Source: an uncultured Bacteroidales bacterium (GTDB lineage: Bacteria; Bacteroidota; Bacteroidia; Bacteroidales; P3). Taken from it: DNA of 64,000 nt. The DNA is taken from the NCBI GenBank assembly GCA_905234695.1, contig CAJOHZ010000002.1:1-64000 (forward strand), in the 5' to 3' direction. Below the pieces are notes generated by a model. The model saw only the letters and a list, made by a program, of their open reading frames with translations, was not told the origin of the DNA and did no database searches. Shown in pieces: positions 22,300 through 52,544 of this stretch (positions are counted from its first letter, which is position 1; every line of letters begins with the position of its first letter). Position numbers and translations under genes: made by a program.

Positions 22300-22342
22300 C
22301 ATTCTCAATTTTTCTGTAAAAGAACTAAAAAACAATATTAAA

Positions 22343-24181
22343 ATGTCCAACAATCAGATAGTTAATAAAGACGACCTCGTCGTCCGCTTCGCTGGTGATT
22401 CCGGCGACGGTATGCAGTTGTCGGGTACCCTCTTTTCCGACGCTTCTGCCCTGACAGGAAACGACATCGCCACCTTCCCCGACTATCCTGCTGAAATCCG
22501 TGCCCCGCACAATACCATCGCGGGTGTGTCGGGCTATCAGGTGCATGTCGGAAACCACATCTACAGCTCCGGCGACAAATGCGACATCCTCGTTGCCATG
22601 AACCCCGCGGCTTTCAAGTCGCAACTGAAATGGGCCAAGAAAGGTGCCACCGTCATTGTTGACATCGACACCTTCACCGACGAGGCCATGGAGAAGGCCG
22701 GTTACAAGGACAATCCCTTCACCGACGAACTTGAGCGTGCCTACACTATCATCAAAGCACCCGTCACCAGTTTCACCGAACGCATCGGTGAGGCACAGGG
22801 AGTTGACAAGAAGACCGCCGACAAGAGCCGCAACATGTTTGCCCTCGGCATCATCTTCTATGCAACCCACAAGACGCTGGACCAGACCTTCGCCTATCTG
22901 GAACGTAAATTTGCCAAGAAACCCGCCGTCGTGGCCTTGAACAAGGCTGTGCTGACCGAGGGCTATGAATATGCCGACAAACTGGAGGTGATGCACTCGC
23001 ACATCTTCGAGGTCGCCAAGGCCGACAAGATGGAGCACGGCCGCTACCGCAATATCACCGGTAACGTGGCTACTGCTTGGGGTCTTCTGGCTGCCAGCGA
23101 AAAGAGCGGTCGCCGTCTCTTCCTCGGAAGTTATCCTATCACCCCCGCCACCGACGTCATGGTCGAACTGGCCAAACACAAGAGCCTTGGCGCCCGTGTG
23201 TTCCAAGCCGAAGACGAGATTGCCGGTGTCTGCTCCGCTATTGGCGCCAGCTATGCCGGTGCATTGGCATGCACTAGCACTTCCGGCCCCGGTCTCTCGC
23301 TGAAGAGTGAAGCGCTGGGTCTGGCAGTGATGACCGAACTCCCGCTTGTGGTTGTCGACGTGCAGCGTGGCGGTCCCTCCACGGGTCTGCCCACCAAGAC
23401 CGAGCAGAGCGACCTCGGCCAGGCCCTCTACGGCCGCAACGGCGAGGCTCCCCTCGTGGTTGTCGCTGCATCGAGCAGTGCCAACTGTTTCTACTGGGCT
23501 TTCAACGCCGCCAAGATTGCCCTTGAGCACATGACCCCCGTCGTCCTGCTCACTGACGGCTATCTGGGCAACGGCAGCCAGCTGTTCCGCATTCCCAGCA
23601 TGAAGGACATGCCCGAAATCAAGCCGCGTCTGGCCAAGGAGAACGACCCGGATTACCGTCCGTTCCGTCGCGACGAGGAGAAATTCGCCCGTGAGTGGGC
23701 TCTGCCTGGAATGGCCGGCCTGAGCCACCGTGTCGGCGGTCTCGAGAAATGCCCCGACGGGCCTCTGAGCACCGACCCCGAAAATCACGCTCTCATGACC
23801 AAGAACCGTCAGGAGAAGGTCAACCGCGTAGCCAACTACATCCCCGACCAGGAAGTCACTGGCAACCCCGATGCCGACCTGCTTGTGGTGGGTTGGGGCG
23901 GCACCGCCGGTGCTCTCACCCTCGCCGTCGAGGAGATGAACAACGAAGGCAAGAAAGTGGCCTATACCCACTTCAACTACATCTGCCCGCTGCCGAAGAA
24001 TACTGGCGACATCCTGCGCAAATACAAGAAGATTGTGGTCTGCGAACTGAATAACGGCCAGTTCGCCGGCTACCTGCGCACCCAGTTCCCAGAGTGTCCC
24101 ATGACCCAGTACAACAAAATCATGGGCCTGCCCTTCGAAGTTGGTGAGCTGAAAGAACACTTCAATAGTTTAATTGGATAA
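22343..24181 (+). CDS. korA: 2-oxoacid:ferredoxin oxidoreductase alpha subunit (gamma-alpha fusion)
   Basis: With KorB this protein oxidatively decarboxylates a 2-oxoacid, probably 2-oxoglutarate, to acyl-CoA while reducing ferredoxin. It has 612 residues. An N-terminal gamma-type domain (VVRFAGDSGDGMQLSGTLF, about 10-185) is fused to the pyrimidine-binding alpha domain (GSYPITPATDVMVELAKH and the QAEDEIAGVCSAIGASYAGA segment), followed by the C-terminal transketolase-like domain. The ATG at 22343 follows the promoter; the track start 22289 is upstream of the expected transcript. The gene's reading is supported throughout by family motifs, so the 611-residue antisense ORF is a shadow. Confidence 0.93.
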   Translation: MSNNQIVNKDDLVVRFAGDSGDGMQLSGTLFSDASALTGNDIATFPDYPAEIRAPHNTIAGVSGYQVHVGNHIYSSGDKCDILVAMNPAAFKSQLKWAKKGATVIVDIDTFTDEAMEKAGYKDNPFTDELERAYTIIKAPVTSFTERIGEAQGVDKKTADKSRNMFALGIIFYATHKTLDQTFAYLERKFAKKPAVVALNKAVLTEGYEYADKLEVMHSHIFEVAKADKMEHGRYRNITGNVATAWGLLAASEKSGRRLFLGSYPITPATDVMVELAKHKSLGARVFQAEDEIAGVCSAIGASYAGALACTSTSGPGLSLKSEALGLAVMTELPLVVVDVQRGGPSTGLPTKTEQSDLGQALYGRNGEAPLVVVAASSSANCFYWAFNAAKIALEHMTPVVLLTDGYLGNGSQLFRIPSMKDMPEIKPRLAKENDPDYRPFRRDEEKFAREWALPGMAGLSHRVGGLEKCPDGPLSTDPENHALMTKNRQEKVNRVANYIPDQEVTGNPDADLLVVGWGGTAGALTLAVEEMNNEGKKVAYTHFNYICPLPKNTGDILRKYKKIVVCELNNGQFAGYLRTQFPECPMTQYNKIMGLPFEVGELKEHFNSLIG

Positions 24182-44864: not shown

Positions 44865-47654
44865 ATGCGACACAAGATGTTCAATACAATGAGATTCCGA
44901 AGCCTCCCCGGCATCCATCTCTTAGTTCTTAGTTCTTCCCTCATACTTCTCGCAGGGTGTTCCACACAGAAGGCCACTTGGCCCAACGTGCAGTATCACA
45001 ACATTACCACCCACTACAACATCTGGTGGAATGGTAACGAAAGTTTGAAAAGTGCCGTGGCCCAACTGGAGAAAAGCAGCAAGGACGACTACACACGCCT
45101 GCTACCAGTATACAAACTGGGGAGCAAGGAGGAAAGCATGTCGGCCAGTCCGCAGTTGGATAGAGCCGTGGAAAAGGGTGTGAAAGGCATCAAGAAACAC
45201 AGCATCTTTGTCGATGGACAGGAGCATGTACCCTATATCGCCAACTGCTATCTGCTGACGGCCTATGCCACCTTCTACAAACACGACCTTACCACCACCG
45301 CGGGTACGTGCCAAACCCTGGTGTATCAGTACAGCGGCACCGCCGTGGGTGACGAGGCAGCCGTGTTGCTGGCCCGCTGTTCAACCCAAGAACAACGCTA
45401 TCAAGAAGCCGAGACGGCTTTGGACGAACTGGTGGTGGCGGCAAGCAAGGGAAACTTTGACAAACACCAGCGACTGAACCTCTATCTGGCCATGGCAGAA
45501 TGCACCTTACCTCAAGAAAAATACAAGAAAGGGGTGCAGTTTCTCAAGCAAGCCCTCGACGAGAAACCCACACGAGCTCAGAAAGCCCGCATTTGCTATA
45601 TTTTGGGACAAGTATACCAGCAACAAGACAAGCGCCCTACTGCCTCCAAATACTACGAGAAGGCGTTGAAATACACCACTGACTACGAGATGGAATTCAA
45701 TGCACGGCTCAGTATCGCCTCATGCGCCGACCTGCAACATACAGACCGCGCCAAGTTGGAGAAACTGTTGGACAAGATGCTCAAAGACAAGAAAAACGAA
45801 GAGTTCGTAGACCAGATATACTATGCCAAAGGCGAGATGTATATGGGCATCCGCGAGTACAAGAAAGCCTGTGAGAACTTCCGCACTTCTGTGGCGAAAT
45901 CGACAACCAACCCCGCACAAAAGGCCCGTTCTGCCATTCGTCTGGCGGGTGTGCTTTACGACAAATTCCAGGACTATGACAAATCGCAACTGTACTATGA
46001 CACAGCCATGACCATCATCAAGTCCGATTATCCACATTACACTCAAATCAAGTCGCGCTACGACCTACTGACATCATTGGTGGCCTACACCCGCGTCATT
46101 GACCGTAACGACAGCCTCATCACGGTGTCCGAGATGCCCGAATCGCAGCGGTTGAACCTTATCAACGAGAAGATCGAGCAGGTGAAGAAAGCCGAGGCCG
46201 AAGCCAAAGAAAAAGAGTTGCTTGAGCAACTGGCCGCCGACGGAAAATCGCAGCAGAACACCCTGCAAGGCGATTGGTACTTCTACAACAGCAACACTGT
46301 ACAAAAAGGCAAAGAAACCTTCCGCCAGCGATGGGGAATGCGGATGCTGGAAGATTATTGGTTTCTCTCCAAGAAAGGACTGTTGGGGATGAATATGACT
46401 GCCATGGGCGACGCCGACAACGGAAGCGACGAAGAGGACAAGAATGAGAAAGACGAATCCAAAGACAGCGTGGATGTAAAGAAAATCCCCGGTGGCAACC
46501 CCGATGACCCGCACGATGTGGCCTACTACCTCAAAGACCTGCCCAAAAGTCAGGCGGAGAAAGACTCCATGCAACTGACCACCGCCTCAGGACTGCTCAA
46601 CGCAGGCTATATCTATTACGACGGCATCCACAACATCCCCAAGGCATTGGAATGCTACCTGAGGATGGCCAACAACTACACCACGAACCCCGAAATTGTG
46701 CAGGCATTCTACATGCTGTACAAAATCTATGACAAACAGGGGAATACCCCTAGTGCCAACTACTATCGCGACATGGTGCTGATGGGATTTCCCGACAGCG
46801 ACTTCGCCAACTTGATTCTGGACGAGGATTATTACAAGGAAATCATGCGTCGCAGCCAGCTGGTAAGGGAGGACTACGAAGCTGTATACACCCATTACCG
46901 CAAGCGTCGCTATGACGATGTGCTACGTGGGGTAGCAGCGGCCAAGGAGGTGTATGACGGAGACCCAATGCTGGGCAAATTCCGCTACTGGGAAGGTCTG
47001 TCCTATGCCCGCATGGACAACAAGGCACAGGCAGTAGCCACCTTCGAGGCCATCGTACGCGACTACCCCTCTACCGACAGCATTGTTCCGCTGGCCCAGG
47101 CCCAGTTGGATTACCTGCGCGGAGAAGGTGGCGAGTATATGGGCAACAGCGGGGGAGACGAGACCGTTGCCGACACACCCGATGGGCTGAAGCCCGAAAA
47201 TGCCACCCGTCGGCGTGCCGAAGACAGCCGCACATCTGCCACAATCGGCAATGAAGACGACGGTCTGCCACCCGAAGCACAGTTGTTTCGCTATAAGGAA
47301 GCGATGCCTCACTATGTCATTATCCTCATCAACGACCGTAAAATCCGTGCCACCGACCTACAGTTGAAGATTGGCGACTTTAACGCGGTATACTACACCA
47401 ACGCAGGTTATCGCGTCAGCCCATTGATGTTTACCGACACGACACAGATGATTACCATCAACCAGTTCCGCAACGCCACCGAGGCATACGACTACTGCCG
47501 TCACCTGCAACGTGAAGAGAGCCCGCTGATGAAATATTCATCGGAGGACTATCAAGTATTCGCTATCTCAAAACAGAATTATACCACCTTCTACAACCGC
47601 AAACGGGTGGATGCATACTCCCTGTTCTACCAAAAATATTACAAGAAAAAATAA
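44865..47654 (+). CDS. porW: T9SS periplasmic TPR lipoprotein PorW/SprE
   Basis: This 929-residue lipoprotein (signal HLLVLSSSLILLAGC) has multiple tetratricopeptide-like repeats from about residue 170 to 400 and again around 590-760. PorW/SprE proteins are needed for type IX secretion and link the motor to the outer-membrane translocon. Opening residues YHNITTHYNIWWNGNESL and the C-terminal MPHYVIILINDRKIRATDLQLKIGDFNAVYY fit that family. An acidic, low-complexity stretch (DNGSDEEDKNEKDESKDSVD) lies near 530. Possible alternative starts are M5 and M9. The mRNA leader carries a sequence complementary to its signal-peptide codons. Confidence 0.82.
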   Translation: MRHKMFNTMRFRSLPGIHLLVLSSSLILLAGCSTQKATWPNVQYHNITTHYNIWWNGNESLKSAVAQLEKSSKDDYTRLLPVYKLGSKEESMSASPQLDRAVEKGVKGIKKHSIFVDGQEHVPYIANCYLLTAYATFYKHDLTTTAGTCQTLVYQYSGTAVGDEAAVLLARCSTQEQRYQEAETALDELVVAASKGNFDKHQRLNLYLAMAECTLPQEKYKKGVQFLKQALDEKPTRAQKARICYILGQVYQQQDKRPTASKYYEKALKYTTDYEMEFNARLSIASCADLQHTDRAKLEKLLDKMLKDKKNEEFVDQIYYAKGEMYMGIREYKKACENFRTSVAKSTTNPAQKARSAIRLAGVLYDKFQDYDKSQLYYDTAMTIIKSDYPHYTQIKSRYDLLTSLVAYTRVIDRNDSLITVSEMPESQRLNLINEKIEQVKKAEAEAKEKELLEQLAADGKSQQNTLQGDWYFYNSNTVQKGKETFRQRWGMRMLEDYWFLSKKGLLGMNMTAMGDADNGSDEEDKNEKDESKDSVDVKKIPGGNPDDPHDVAYYLKDLPKSQAEKDSMQLTTASGLLNAGYIYYDGIHNIPKALECYLRMANNYTTNPEIVQAFYMLYKIYDKQGNTPSANYYRDMVLMGFPDSDFANLILDEDYYKEIMRRSQLVREDYEAVYTHYRKRRYDDVLRGVAAAKEVYDGDPMLGKFRYWEGLSYARMDNKAQAVATFEAIVRDYPSTDSIVPLAQAQLDYLRGEGGEYMGNSGGDETVADTPDGLKPENATRRRAEDSRTSATIGNEDDGLPPEAQLFRYKEAMPHYVIILINDRKIRATDLQLKIGDFNAVYYTNAGYRVSPLMFTDTTQMITINQFRNATEAYDYCRHLQREESPLMKYSSEDYQVFAISKQNYTTFYNRKRVDAYSLFYQKYYKKK

Positions 47655-47662
47655 CCCATACC

Positions 47663-48019
47663 ATGAGCAATACTGTCAACAGTTCCATCAACACCATCAC
47701 CGAAGGCACCTCCATCAAAGGTGACATCACCGCCAACGGAGACTTCCGTCTCGACGGGATACTGGAGGGCAATATCACCCTGACCGGCAAACTGGTGGTA
47801 GGAGAGAAAGGTGCGGTAAAGGGCAATATCATCTGCCAGAACGCCAACATCATCGGTGTAGTCACGGGAAATGTGTCGGTAAAGGAATTCCTGACCCTCT
47901 TTGCTTCGTCAAGGGTGCAAGGCGACATCATCACCGACCGGCTCTCGATAGAACCCGGTGCCCGTTTCTCGGGCTCGTGCCGGATGCTTGACGAACTTTC
48001 CGAACCCACCAAATCATGA
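47663..48019 (+). CDS. Bactofilin (polymer-forming cytoskeletal protein)
   Basis: This 118-residue protein consists almost wholly of a right-handed beta-helix DUF583 domain with repeated hydrophobic/glycine steps (GDITANGDFRLDGILEGNITLTG; GAVKGNIICQNANIIGVVTGNV). Bactofilins polymerise without nucleotide and organise wall synthesis or hydrolysis. It begins 8 bp after porW and overlaps the next gene by 4 bp. Confidence 0.93.
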   Translation: MSNTVNSSINTITEGTSIKGDITANGDFRLDGILEGNITLTGKLVVGEKGAVKGNIICQNANIIGVVTGNVSVKEFLTLFASSRVQGDIITDRLSIEPGARFSGSCRMLDELSEPTKS

Positions 48020-49434
48020 ATCCCGAAGAGACCATCGTAAGTCTGTTCGAGCAGTGGTCCGGCACACGCTGCATGGAGTACCAATCACTGCACGCCAATG
48101 GAAGCAACCGCCTCTACTGGCGGATGCACGGCCTTACAGGACAACAATGCATCGCCGCCTACAACGAGGATGTGCGTGAGAACGAAGCCTTCTTCTACTA
48201 TTGTCGTGCCTTACGCGACCGCGGAATACACGTCCCTGAACTATATTCCGTAAGTGACGACCATAAGTACTATCTGCAGCAGGACCTCGGCGATGTTACC
48301 CTCTTCAGCCATCTCTCTGACCACCGAAAAGCGGGCGGAGGCTTCGATGCCGGAATGCTAACGTTATACAAACAGGTGTTAGCCGACCTGGCACAGATGC
48401 AAGTGGCTGGCCGCGACATGGATTTCACCCACGCCTATCCTCGGAGCGACTTCGATAGACAATCCATCCAATGGGATTTGAACTATTTCAAGTACTACTT
48501 CCTTAAACTCACCCATACTCCTTTCGACGAAGAACTGCTAGAGCGCGACTTCAGCCTCTTAACAGACTACCTGTTGGAAGCCGACTGCGGATTCTTTCTT
48601 TACCGTGATTTCCAGGCACGGAACATCATGCTATACGAAAACACCCCATACTACATAGATTTCCAAGGGGGAAGGAGAGGGGCTGCCCAATATGATGTGG
48701 CTTCTCTGCTGTACAGCGCCAGAAGTGAAATACCCGAAGTCATCCGCCAAGAGCTGTTGGAATACTATATCCAATGCTTGGCCAATCGGTATCCGATAGA
48801 CACGAAAGTGTTTCGCCAACAGTTTCATGCTTATGTGCGCATCCGCATCATGCAGACCCTGGGAGCATACGGTTTCCGAGGACTTCTGGAAAAGAAAGAG
48901 CAGTTCATCTCCAGTATCCCATTGGCACTTCACAACCTACGCATCGTCACGGAGAACCAACCACTGCCAATAGCATTGCCCCATCTGGAACAGGTGTGGC
49001 GCACCCTGGCTGAACGCAGTATCAGTCCCGAGCCTCCGGCAGCGGAGGGCCTGACTGTGGAGGTGGGCAGTTTCTCATACAAGAAAGGCCTCCCACAAGA
49101 CACCTCGGGCAACGGCGGCGGTTTCATCTTCGACTGCCGCGCGCTGCCCAACCCCGGCCGTTATCCAGAATATCTCAACTATACCGGAAAAGACCGTCCA
49201 GTGATAGAGTTCCTACAAGACGCCCCCGCGGTGAAATACTTCCTCAACGCGGCAAAACAGATGGTAGGTCCCTCTGTGAAACGGTATCTGGAACGCAACT
49301 TCACCCATCTATCTGTCTATTTCGGTTGTACCGGAGGACAGCACCGCTCAGTATATTGCGCCGAACGACTCGCCGAATGGCTGTCGGAAAACTTTGATTG
49401 CCACGTAGTTCTAATACATCGGGAACAGCAATAA
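48016..49434 (+). CDS. Fusion of APH-type (AmgK-like) sugar kinase and RapZ C-terminal domain
   Basis: This 472-residue two-domain protein has residues about 1-335 as an aminoglycoside-phosphotransferase-fold kinase, with the catalytic segment YRDFQARNIM and DFQGGRRG near 195-220, closest to AmgK-type amino-sugar kinases. Residues about 345-472 are a RapZ C-terminal domain: FIFDCRALPNPGRYPEYLNY and the signature FGCTGGQHRSVYCAERLAEWL. The RapZ N-terminal P-loop kinase is absent. No MurU-like nucleotidyltransferase, the usual AmgK partner, is in the window. The ATGA overlap with bactofilin suggests a cell-wall link. Substrate inferred only. Confidence 0.87.
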   Translation: MNPEETIVSLFEQWSGTRCMEYQSLHANGSNRLYWRMHGLTGQQCIAAYNEDVRENEAFFYYCRALRDRGIHVPELYSVSDDHKYYLQQDLGDVTLFSHLSDHRKAGGGFDAGMLTLYKQVLADLAQMQVAGRDMDFTHAYPRSDFDRQSIQWDLNYFKYYFLKLTHTPFDEELLERDFSLLTDYLLEADCGFFLYRDFQARNIMLYENTPYYIDFQGGRRGAAQYDVASLLYSARSEIPEVIRQELLEYYIQCLANRYPIDTKVFRQQFHAYVRIRIMQTLGAYGFRGLLEKKEQFISSIPLALHNLRIVTENQPLPIALPHLEQVWRTLAERSISPEPPAAEGLTVEVGSFSYKKGLPQDTSGNGGGFIFDCRALPNPGRYPEYLNYTGKDRPVIEFLQDAPAVKYFLNAAKQMVGPSVKRYLERNFTHLSVYFGCTGGQHRSVYCAERLAEWLSENFDCHVVLIHREQQ

Positions 49435-49477
49435 AAAAAACTTTCCACAATTTTCTCTCCACTTCTCACTTTTTTCG

Positions 49478-49485
49478 TATCTTTG
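49478..49485 (+). promoter_or_regulatory. -7 promoter element for the 49.5 kb gene
   Basis: TATCTTTG is an exact TAnnTTTG match, 37 bp before ATG 49523, in an AT-rich 88-bp intergenic gap. No obvious -33. Confidence 0.6.
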
Positions 49486-49522
49486 CACATCATTTGAAGA
49501 AATAAAAAACAAAACTATACAC

Positions 49523-50194
49523 ATGAAAAGCAGAACAATAGTCTCTATCTTGCTGGCCGTCGTTGCAGCGGCTCTCGCCTATTTAGTGTACAACTCGATT
49601 CACTCCTCCGTCAAATTCAACGACGAGTATGAGGTGCGTCGCGAAGCCAGTGCCGACAAGCTGAAAGCCATCCGCACACTGGAAGAGGCTTACAAGTCCA
49701 CCTATGGCCACTATACCGGCAGTTTCGACACCCTGTTCAACCGTCTGCTCAACGAGGACAGTCTGAGTGTGGTAAGCAAGGTTATCAACTACGACAAGAT
49801 TCCCGAAGATGTGGAAATCGACGAAATGACCGAGGCCGACAAAATCAAGGCTGGTTACATGACCAAAGTTGTCGAGTTTGTTAACCCCGTTGAGAACCTG
49901 CGTAAGACCCCGAAGGCGAAATTCAACCTCACCGACGAGGAAATTCTCAACCTCCGTTACATTCCCTATCCCAAGGGTACCGACAAGCAGTTCCAGCTGC
50001 AGGCTGGCTTTATCGAGAAGTCTGGCTACCAGTTGCCTGTGTTCGAATGCTTGGTAATGATGGAAGACCTGCTTTCGGATCTTCCCGAGCAGTTAGTCAT
50101 CAACAAGATTGACGAGCTTATCAAGAACAAACGCTTCCCAGGATGGAAAGTGGGCGATATGACCCAGGCAATCACCGACGGCAACTTCGAATAA
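49523..50194 (+). CDS. Uncharacterised membrane-anchored protein
   Basis: This 223-residue protein has one N-terminal membrane anchor (TIVSILLAVVAAALAYLVYNSI) and a predicted extracytoplasmic helical domain that opens with EYEVRREASADKLKAIRTLEEAYKSTYGHYTGSFDTL. That stretch has the look of pilin-like minor proteins but no prepilin cleavage site. I do not recognise a family with certainty. It has its own promoter and is 3 bp before the DUF3822 gene, so the two are coupled. Confidence 0.8.
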   Translation: MKSRTIVSILLAVVAAALAYLVYNSIHSSVKFNDEYEVRREASADKLKAIRTLEEAYKSTYGHYTGSFDTLFNRLLNEDSLSVVSKVINYDKIPEDVEIDEMTEADKIKAGYMTKVVEFVNPVENLRKTPKAKFNLTDEEILNLRYIPYPKGTDKQFQLQAGFIEKSGYQLPVFECLVMMEDLLSDLPEQLVINKIDELIKNKRFPGWKVGDMTQAITDGNFE

Positions 50195-50197
50195 ACG

Positions 50198-51022
50198 ATG
50201 TCATATAAAGTCACAACTCTTATCACGACAGATAAAGCGGTGGCCAATAACGATTCAAGATTATCCATTTGCCTCCGGTCAAATGGATTTTCTTTTTCGG
50301 TAACCGCCGCCGATGTGCTGCTCACACTGGGCGAAGTTGAGTGTGACCTCAACCGACCACTGGGGGAGACGGTAAGCCTTGTCAAGGCATTCTTCGCAGA
50401 ACAAGGCATTGACACCCTGAATACCGCACAAATGCGGCTCATCGTGCCGAGCGACCAATTTGTGTGGATTCCTGAAGAGTTATACGACCCAACACGCGAC
50501 CGCCAGTATCTACAGATGGTCGCCACCGTGGAACGTGAGCAGAGCATCTGCCATATTCTTTCGCAGTCATTGAAAGCCTATATGGTCTTTACAGCCCCTC
50601 AGGCCGCCACCACAGCTTTCAAAGTGGCCCTGCCAGGTATCGACATCCACAATCAGCATTCCATGCTGGTCAACGAACTGATACTGAAAAAGAGTTTAGG
50701 ACACCCATGTCTGCTGATGCATGTGCGCGACTGCAAGGCCGACTTCGAGGCGTTCTACGACGGCCATCTGCTGCTGAGCAACACTCTGCCTGCCGCCGAC
50801 GAAAATGAATGCCTATACCATGCCCTCGGCATTATGAAAAACCTTCACATGGAGACCCCCGACATGGAGTTGGCGATATGCGGACAGGTGGGACGTGACA
50901 TCTATCGGAAACTGCAACACTATTTCCCATCCGTCACTCTCTACACAGGACGTTCCTATAAATACCTCAATCCCGAATTGCAAACCCTCCACATCTACCG
51001 CCACACACTATTGTTGGCATAG
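50198..51022 (+). CDS. DUF3822 family protein
   Basis: This 274-residue protein (MSYKVTTLITTDKAVANNDSRLSICL) of the Bacteroidota DUF3822 family has an actin-like-fold appearance with two beta-rich halves. It is regularly found beside rsmD, as here (19 bp upstream). The function is unknown; no catalytic motif is evident. Confidence 0.83.
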   Translation: MSYKVTTLITTDKAVANNDSRLSICLRSNGFSFSVTAADVLLTLGEVECDLNRPLGETVSLVKAFFAEQGIDTLNTAQMRLIVPSDQFVWIPEELYDPTRDRQYLQMVATVEREQSICHILSQSLKAYMVFTAPQAATTAFKVALPGIDIHNQHSMLVNELILKKSLGHPCLLMHVRDCKADFEAFYDGHLLLSNTLPAADENECLYHALGIMKNLHMETPDMELAICGQVGRDIYRKLQHYFPSVTLYTGRSYKYLNPELQTLHIYRHTLLLA

Positions 51023-51041
51023 ACCACAACCTCCACCCACC

Positions 51042-51581
51042 ATGCGTATCATTGCAGGATCTCTCAAAGGCCGCCGCCTCAACCCGCCTACCTCGCTGCC
51101 AGTGCGTCCTACCACTGACATGGCTCGCGAGGGGTTGTTCAATATCCTCAACAACTATGTGGACTACGAAGAGTGCACTGTGATGGATCTTTTTGCCGGC
51201 ACCGGTGCAATGTCGCTTGAGTTTGTGTCGCGAGGAGCCAAAGAAGTGACCGCAATAGAGATCAACAATCAATGCACCGATTTCATCAAGTCGGCGGCGC
51301 AGCAGTTCGGTGTCCAGAACCTTCATGTGGTGCGTACAGATGTTTTCGATTTGTTAAAACGAGCCTATAAGAAGTTCGACATCATCTTCGCCGACCCTCC
51401 CTATGCACTGGAAACTCTCCCACAACTGCCTGACCTCGTCTTCACCCACGACCTGCTGACCGACGACGGAATCTTCATTCTGGAGCACCCAGAGGAATTC
51501 CAATTTGAAGATCATCCCCATTTCTGGCAGCATCGACACTACGGGCGGGTGAATTTCACCTTCTTTGCAAAAACATTATAA
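51042..51581 (+). CDS. rsmD: 16S rRNA (guanine-N2)-methyltransferase RsmD
   Basis: This 179-residue SAM-dependent methyltransferase modifies G966 of 16S rRNA. It starts MRIIAGSLKGRRLNPP, has MDLFAGTGAMSLEFVSRGA (SAM site) near 50 and the catalytic DPPY in IIFADPPYAL near 122. The track ORF from 50895 adds residues read out of the DUF3822 gene and is trimmed to ATG 51042. Confidence 0.93.
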   Translation: MRIIAGSLKGRRLNPPTSLPVRPTTDMAREGLFNILNNYVDYEECTVMDLFAGTGAMSLEFVSRGAKEVTAIEINNQCTDFIKSAAQQFGVQNLHVVRTDVFDLLKRAYKKFDIIFADPPYALETLPQLPDLVFTHDLLTDDGIFILEHPEEFQFEDHPHFWQHRHYGRVNFTFFAKTL

Positions 51582-51593
51582 AATATATTCCCA

Positions 51594-52544
51594 ATGGACG
51601 CAATAATCAAAACTAATTTCTCCTTCCCCAAGCAGAAAGGTCTGTATGTGGGCAAGGTGCGCGACGTGTACAATATCGATGACAAATACATGGCCATGGT
51701 GGTGAGCGACCGCATCTCTGCCTTCGATGTGGTGCTACCCAAGGGCATTCCCTACAAAGGTCAGGTGCTCAACCAGATTGCCGCCAAGTTCTTGGATGCC
51801 ACAGCTGATATTGTCCCGAACTGGAAGATGGCCACCCCTGACCCCATGGTCACCGTGGGTTTGAAATGCGAAGGATTCCGAGTAGAGATGATTGTGCGCG
51901 GATACCTCGCCGGCTCGGCCTGGCGCGAATACAAAGCCGGCACCCGCACACTTTGCGGTGTGCCGCTGCCTGAAGGAATGAAAGAAAACCAAAAGTTCCC
52001 CACACCGATTGTCACCCCCACGACCAAAGCTGACGAAGGTCATGACGAGAATATCTCGCGGGAAGAGATTATCCGCACCGGCTTGGTATCTAAAGAAGAC
52101 TACGACCAACTGGAAAAATACGCTCTGGCCCTGTTCCAGCGCGGCACGGAAATAGCCGCCTCCAAAGGTTTGATATTGGTGGATACCAAATACGAGTTTG
52201 GCAAACGCGACGGGAAAATTTATCTTATCGATGAAATCCACACACCCGACAGCAGCCGCTATTTTTATGCCGACGGTTACGAGGAACGACTGGCCAAAGG
52301 CGAACATCAACGGCAACTTTCCAAGGAGTTTGTACGTGAATGGCTGATGGATAACGGATTCCAAGGCAAGGAAGGCCAGAAGGTGCCCGAAATGACAGAC
52401 GCAATTGTCAACAGCATCACCGACCGCTATATCGAACTCTACGAACACATTACTGGCGAGAAGTTCCAGAAAGCGGAAGATTGTGCCGACGTCACCGGCC
52501 GCATCGAAAAGAATGTCAGCCGGTATCTTGCCACGCTGGCATAA
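51594..52544 (+). CDS. purC: Phosphoribosylaminoimidazole-succinocarboxamide synthase
   Basis: PurC adds aspartate to CAIR in purine synthesis. This 316-residue protein has the long, yeast-like SAICAR synthetase form: [41 protein letters not shown] near the start, [14 protein letters not shown] near 99 and [19 protein letters not shown] near 210. It lies 12 bp after rsmD and 13 bp before the CYTH gene. Confidence 0.97.

Follow-up and report, generated by a model that had tools for sequence, protein, structure and literature searches.

The window analyzed here, a 64,000-nucleotide stretch of DNA from an uncultured Bacteroidales bacterium, encodes a protein in which a kinase of the APH/AmgK type is fused to the C-terminal domain of RapZ (RapZ-C). 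This fusion is ancient and conserved in Bacteroidota and related phyla and, to judge from its sequence and genomic associations, very probably belongs to the MurNAc salvage pathway. We lean, with a little less than even confidence, toward a bifunctional salvage enzyme, in which RapZ-C would be a MurNAc-6-phosphate phosphatase and the kinase half a MurNAc 1-kinase, with MurU acting next. The domains and the pathway are all known; as far as we searched the literature, their joining in one protein, where that protein occurs, and the step proposed for it have not been described, and no paper joining RapZ with AmgK was found there.

The first-pass annotation of this gene, made from the sequence alone, had described an APH/AmgK-like kinase (signatures YRDFQARNIM and DFQGGRRG) fused to RapZ-C (signature GCTGGQHRSV), with the P-loop half of RapZ missing. 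All three signatures are found as described, the open reading frame starts with an ATG codon (Table 1), and the Pfam search confirmed the fusion: APH, at residues 53 to 253, exceeds its gathering score (E value, 4.1e-10), and RapZ_C (PF22740), at residues 347 to 471, scores 115.8 bits against a gathering score of 27 (E value, 1.7e-33). The N-terminal Walker-A kinase-like half of RapZ is indeed absent, with APH found in its place, and Pfam detects no HAD domain in the fusion. Sequence matches in the PDB are to 3csv (APH) and to 5o5s and 5o5o (RapZ). In NCBIfam, two AmgK models and the RapZ model match the fusion, all below their cut-offs; the RapZ equivalog is missed with 101.9 bits against 244. 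Structure prediction, which the annotation had set as a test of both halves, recovered a kinase fold and a RapZ fold. The AlphaFold2 model of the full-length fusion, built with 60 homologues (mean pLDDT, 92.5), has two confident domains and disordered residues 337 to 343, and in Foldseek it matches the APH protein 3csv (E value, 3.7e-14) and E. coli RapZ. RapZ-C modeled alone (pLDDT, 94.6) matches 5o5s with an E value of 3.4e-9, TM scores of 0.88/0.91, and an rmsd of 1.8.

Table 1. Coordinates of the fusion gene, its parts, and the overlapping bactofilin gene in the window
Feature	Position	Strand	Basis
Fusion gene, AmgK-like kinase plus RapZ C-terminal domain, 472 aa	48016..49434	+	ORF, Pfam, 59 full-length homologues
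Kinase half, APH/AmgK type, residues 1-334	48016..49017	+	NCBIfam NF045759, Foldseek 3csv
Catalytic loop YRDFQARN, residues 196-203	48601..48624	+	D198 and N203 invariant in 60 fusions
Metal-binding motif DFQ, residues 215-217	48658..48666	+	D215 and Q217 invariant
Interdomain linker, residues 335-345	49018..49050	+	pLDDT <50 at 337-343
RapZ C-terminal domain, residues 346-472	49051..49431	+	Pfam PF22740, AlphaFold2, Foldseek
Gly-rich GNGGG loop, residues 365-369	49108..49122	+	Typical of the fusion family, not in canonical RapZ
Phosphate loop C-TGGQH-R-S, CX5RS type, residues 438-445	49327..49350	+	Alignment
Bactofilin gene, 4-bp overlap with fusion start	47663..48019	+	ORF

At least 554 relatives of the fusion were confirmed in species genomes. 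The best 80 of these come from Bacteroidota and from records named Ignavibacteriales, Calditrichota, KSB1, and Marinimicrobia, and 59 relatives align with the fusion over its full length. Among 60 aligned fusions, there is no variation at the kinase residues R197, D198, N203, and D215 or at the RapZ-domain residues C438, T439, G440, G441, H443, R444, and S445; more than 550 relatives and invariant motifs rule out a chance open reading frame or a frame artefact. The fusion occurs widely among Bacteroidota and related phyla, gut Bacteroides and Parabacteroides included. In the public records of Bacteroides finegoldii and Parabacteroides distasonis, it is labeled “RNase adapter RapZ,” a name that hides its tie to wall-sugar salvage, and the next gene in both is MurU-like, recorded as “nucleotidyltransferase family protein.” The genome from which the window comes has no second RapZ_C domain above the cut-off; a second, full-length RapZ was not found there, one weak match with an E value of 0.013 being set aside.

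AmgK of Pseudomonas is an anomeric kinase of MurNAc and GlcNAc, with MurNAc-alpha-1-phosphate as its product. The fusion resembles AmgK (NF045759/NF045698) in its APH fold, catalytic residues, MurU partner, and the presence of AnmK in the genome, and differs from it in carrying the extra RapZ-C domain and in having Tyr in place of the Brenner His (YRD instead of HRD). Searched alone against NCBIfam, the kinase half has AmgK as its only curated family at E values below 0.001, and the match to NF045759 (E value, 4e-14) scores about 52 bits, far short of the cut-off of 550; a Xanthomonas AmgK-like protein encoded beside an annotated murU also falls under that cut-off, with 259 bits. The catalytic Asp/Asn loop and the DFQ-type metal motif are common to the kinase half and proteobacterial AmgK-like proteins, in a comparison of three rows that leaves out the Xanthomonas row; the AmgK and canonical RapZ sequences used for comparison were taken from plasmid-collection records. 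We favor viewing the fusion as the form that AmgK takes in the FCB group (Bacteroidota and relatives), with a predicted 1-kinase activity. Given the missed curated cut-offs for both AmgK and MurU and the many substrates of APH-fold kinases, the kinase half might act on some other small molecule, such as another amino sugar or an antibiotic, and the MurU-like protein might be another sugar nucleotidyltransferase. This appears improbable in view of the exclusive match to AmgK, the best match of the partner (MurU), and an AnmK/MurQ gene content that fits MurNAc salvage.

Gene neighborhoods were surveyed for the best 80 of the at least 554 relatives. Directly downstream of the fusion, about 25 of the 80 encode a MurU-like nucleotidyltransferase, whose best curated match is MurU, below the MurU cut-off. 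Upstream in the window lies the bactofilin gene, and its overlap with the fusion (ATGA), pointed out in the annotation, is real. However, bactofilin as a functional partner was not supported: bactofilin precedes the fusion in 25 of the 80 relatives, all of them close to the window, the other 55 have no bactofilin neighbor, and none of the 80 loci has both bactofilin and the MurU-like gene. Bactofilin was rejected as a conserved partner since the adjacency does not extend beyond close relatives. That the fusion acts together with bactofilin at a defined site of wall synthesis, as the overlap and the 25 adjacencies might suggest, thus seems most improbable. The close relatives keep the gene order of the window from 44865 to 52544 (TPR lipoprotein, bactofilin, fusion, 223-aa protein, 274-aa protein, RsmD-like protein, and SAICAR synthase), and the last genes of this series have no obvious tie to wall metabolism.

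The annotation had advised looking for a distant murU, and a MurU-like gene is found in the same genome on contig 25 (18581 to 19285; E value, 2.3e-88). This gene (L160:8552-9301) lies apart from the fusion, between capsule/polysaccharide export genes and a gene for a 932-aa protein. An IspD-like gene (C2:78776) was rejected as murU on its sequence.

Co-occurrence was assessed across 198 genomes sampled evenly from the phylum, with RapZ-C counted above the cut-off and MurU-like genes counted at E values below 1e-50. RapZ-C is encoded in 24 of the 198 genomes, and a MurU-like gene is present in 24 of these 24 versus 1 (G009) of the 174 others, counts that are not phylogenetically independent, as genomes within one family are not independent of each other. 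Eight weaker MurU-like matches, with E values near 1e-41, come from one family and are of a different type. In three genomes (G031, G095, and G012), AmgK, RapZ-C, and MurU are encoded by three consecutive separate genes, and in a fourth (G180), RapZ-C is encoded by itself, apart from AmgK and MurU, which lie on other contigs. Fusion, neighborhood, and co-occurrence thus agree in pointing to a joint function of RapZ-C with AmgK and MurU. The stand-alone RapZ-C gene of G180 (L148:4935-5336) has a 4-bp overlap with the start of a gene for a 545-aa nuclease-like protein.

G009 has an AmgK-like gene without RapZ-C, as do 41 genomes of a single family (f17), which we take to be possibly Chlorobiaceae; all of these genomes are without AnmK and MurQ. 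G009 is also without BadF-type kinases, and its AmgK and MurU genes, encoded without RapZ-C, overlap by 4 bp (L159:5090-6801). In the f17 genomes, which are 2 to 3 Mb in size, a divergent AmgK-like gene adjoins a weak MurU-like gene (e.g., G181:C6:7568-9231).

The Pseudomonas salvage route runs through AnmK, MupP, AmgK, and MurU (PMC5371407). The genome with the window encodes AnmK and MurA, and no MurQ match in it rises above background. The one full-length HAD_2 protein of this genome was rejected as MupP (NF009696) because it matches PpaX/Gph far better (152 bits, versus 58 bits for MupP), and MupP was not detected in this genome, the one genome searched for it, via one Pfam family. With AnmK present, MurQ absent, and MupP not detected, MurNAc-6-phosphate is left there without a known outlet. 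AnmK is found in 136 of the 198 sampled genomes. Among the rows listed, MurQ accompanies AnmK in all of them but eight (G000, G012, G017, G095, G005, G087, G128, and G180), and RapZ-C and MurU are both present in all 8 of these. MurQ is also present in 10 of the 24 RapZ-C genomes, so the proposed phosphatase would not always be the sole outlet. AnmK is missing from 7 of the 24, all 7 of which encode a kinase of the BadF type, about 300 aa long, a type that is common anyway in the families of these genomes. MurK of Tannerella forsythia is presumably a member of the BadF-type Pfam family. It forms MurNAc-6P (PMC5790795). The cell-wall sugar-salvage context suggested in the annotation is supported, and the pattern of gene content, in counts that here too are not phylogenetically independent, fits a domain that would deal with MurNAc-6P.

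The residues kept and lost in the RapZ half were compared between 51 fusions plus 4 stand-alone domains and E. coli RapZ plus seven other canonical RapZ proteins. The phosphate-loop residues C, T, G, G, H, R, and S (438 to 445) are kept in 51 of 51 fusions and in the 4 stand-alone domains, with Q442 varying. In E. coli RapZ numbering, C247, T248, G249, G250, H252, R253, S254, and D202 are kept in all fusions (for the phosphate pocket, C247, T248, G249, H252, and R253 in 51 of 51). H190, a further pocket residue at which canonical RapZ proteins have His or Tyr, is replaced with Gly in 51 of 51 fusions and in 4 of 4 stand-alone domains, which leaves the putative GlcN6P pocket of E. coli RapZ only partly retained, and N236 is replaced with Arg in 51 of 51 fusions. 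The domain has the same fold and the same C-T-G-G-x-H-R-S loop as the C-terminal domain of E. coli RapZ (5o5s, 5o5o, and 8b0i), whereas the fusion differs from that protein in lacking its N-terminal P-loop kinase domain and its basic RNA-binding tail, in the replacements of H190 and N236, in the extra GNGGG loop, and in its AmgK/MurU partner.

By alignment, the phosphate loop is strictly constrained and the RNA-binding features are lost: the RNA-contact residues K194, R211, R238, K251, and K270 are replaced (R238 with Phe or Tyr), and the basic C-terminal tail of canonical RapZ is absent from the fusions. RNA binding of the E. coli type, in which RapZ presents a small RNA to RNase E, is therefore unlikely. 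A regulator resembling E. coli RapZ, acting on a glmS-type mRNA or small RNA with the kinase half as the signal input, could be argued from the similarity in sequence and fold to the RapZ C-terminal domain, which binds RNA alone, and from K170 and R184, which are mostly retained. Such a role is quite improbable for a protein with a metabolic enzyme as its gene partner, although the residue loss weakens rather than excludes it, since R211, K251, K270, and the tail also vary in several canonical RapZ proteins.

The main competing explanation, adapted from the feedback control by an amino-sugar sensor that the annotation had suggested, is that RapZ-C is a sensor that would bind a phosphorylated amino sugar, such as GlcN6P or MurNAc-6P, without hydrolysis and tune AmgK so that salvage follows precursor supply. 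The C-terminal domain of E. coli RapZ does bind GlcN6P with nanomolar affinity (PMC7073468), the T, G, H, and R residues of the phosphate pocket are invariant in the fusions, and RapZ-C, tied to AmgK and MurU in all the ways described above, is retained also in genomes that have MurQ or lack AnmK. However, the changes of H190 to Gly and N236 to Arg suggest that the ligand probably differs from GlcN6P, and stand-alone RapZ-C genes would need protein-protein contact to regulate the kinase. Moreover, a pure sensor leaves unexplained both the strict retention of the Cys residue and the fate of MurNAc-6P in genomes with AnmK and without MurQ. We regard this explanation as rather doubtful, if by no means remote; the gene content agrees no less well with a catalytic, phosphatase-like role of RapZ-C.

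A phosphatase-like role draws attention to the loop itself. C438, R444, and S445 form a CX5R(S/T) loop, which in the AlphaFold2 model is preceded by a strand (431 to 438) and followed by a helix (444 to 459), an arrangement shared with Cys-dependent protein tyrosine phosphatases. However, Foldseek found no protein tyrosine phosphatase fold match for the RapZ-C model, returning RapZ itself only, so the likeness is local. Since C247 is just as invariant in canonical RapZ, its retention is no proof of catalysis in the fusion. For E. coli RapZ, the phosphatase-loop likeness has already been published by Khan and Gorke, who proposed slow hydrolysis of GlcN6P (PMC7199280); a link to AmgK/MurU was not found in the literature searched. 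The C247S replacement abolishes the function of E. coli RapZ, for which the authors suspect a catalytic -SH group, and the pocket in the crystal probably holds a transformed product of GlcN6P (Islam et al., PMC9841335).

In the bifunctional enzyme toward which we lean, AnmK would convert anhydro-MurNAc to MurNAc-6-phosphate, and RapZ-C would take off the 6-phosphate via its cysteine phosphate loop, with Cys438 as the nucleophile, the phosphate held by Arg444 and the backbone, and Asp393 as the candidate acid. Free MurNAc would then be handed to the attached kinase and phosphorylated at C1, and the separately encoded MurU-like enzyme would produce UDP-MurNAc for peptidoglycan. We infer in this scheme the kinase substrate, the phosphatase activity and its substrate, and the channeling of the intermediate, by which the fusion would replace the MupP phosphatase of Pseudomonas. 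MupP, a HAD-type MurNAc-6-phosphate phosphatase, carries out the step proposed here for RapZ-C (PMC5371407) and has an unrelated fold, with a HAD Asp mechanism as opposed to the proposed Cys loop. If RapZ-C is such a phosphatase, the invariant Arg427 and Gly381 would fit its pocket to the larger, carboxylate-bearing MurNAc-6P.

On the same assumption, RapZ-C would supply the reaction that links AnmK to AmgK in these bacteria, explain the essential cysteine of E. coli RapZ and the transformed-looking GlcN6P in its crystal, and provide an enzyme origin for an RNA-binding regulator. A broader proposal is that RapZ-C is at root a Cys-dependent amino-sugar-6-phosphate phosphatase, which in Bacteroidota and related phyla would act as the missing phosphatase for MurNAc-6-phosphate, joined with AmgK in a bifunctional salvage enzyme, and from which the E. 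coli RNA regulator would be derived; we offer it tentatively, at a probability somewhat below even. MurNAc salvage bears on fosfomycin tolerance and on those Bacteroidota that depend on MurNAc, Tannerella among them (PMC5371407, PMC7670621).

Short stand-alone RapZ-C-like proteins are also borne by linear plasmids of Streptomyces, Nocardiopsis, and Planobispora (L177:3001-3483; L184). Most of them are labeled “RNase adapter RapZ,” and the one from Planobispora shares the C-x-G-G-x-H-R-S loop. Elsewhere in the window, a 611-aa open frame (22325 to 24160, minus strand) runs antisense to a gene for a 2-oxoacid oxidoreductase and is probably a by-product of codon use.
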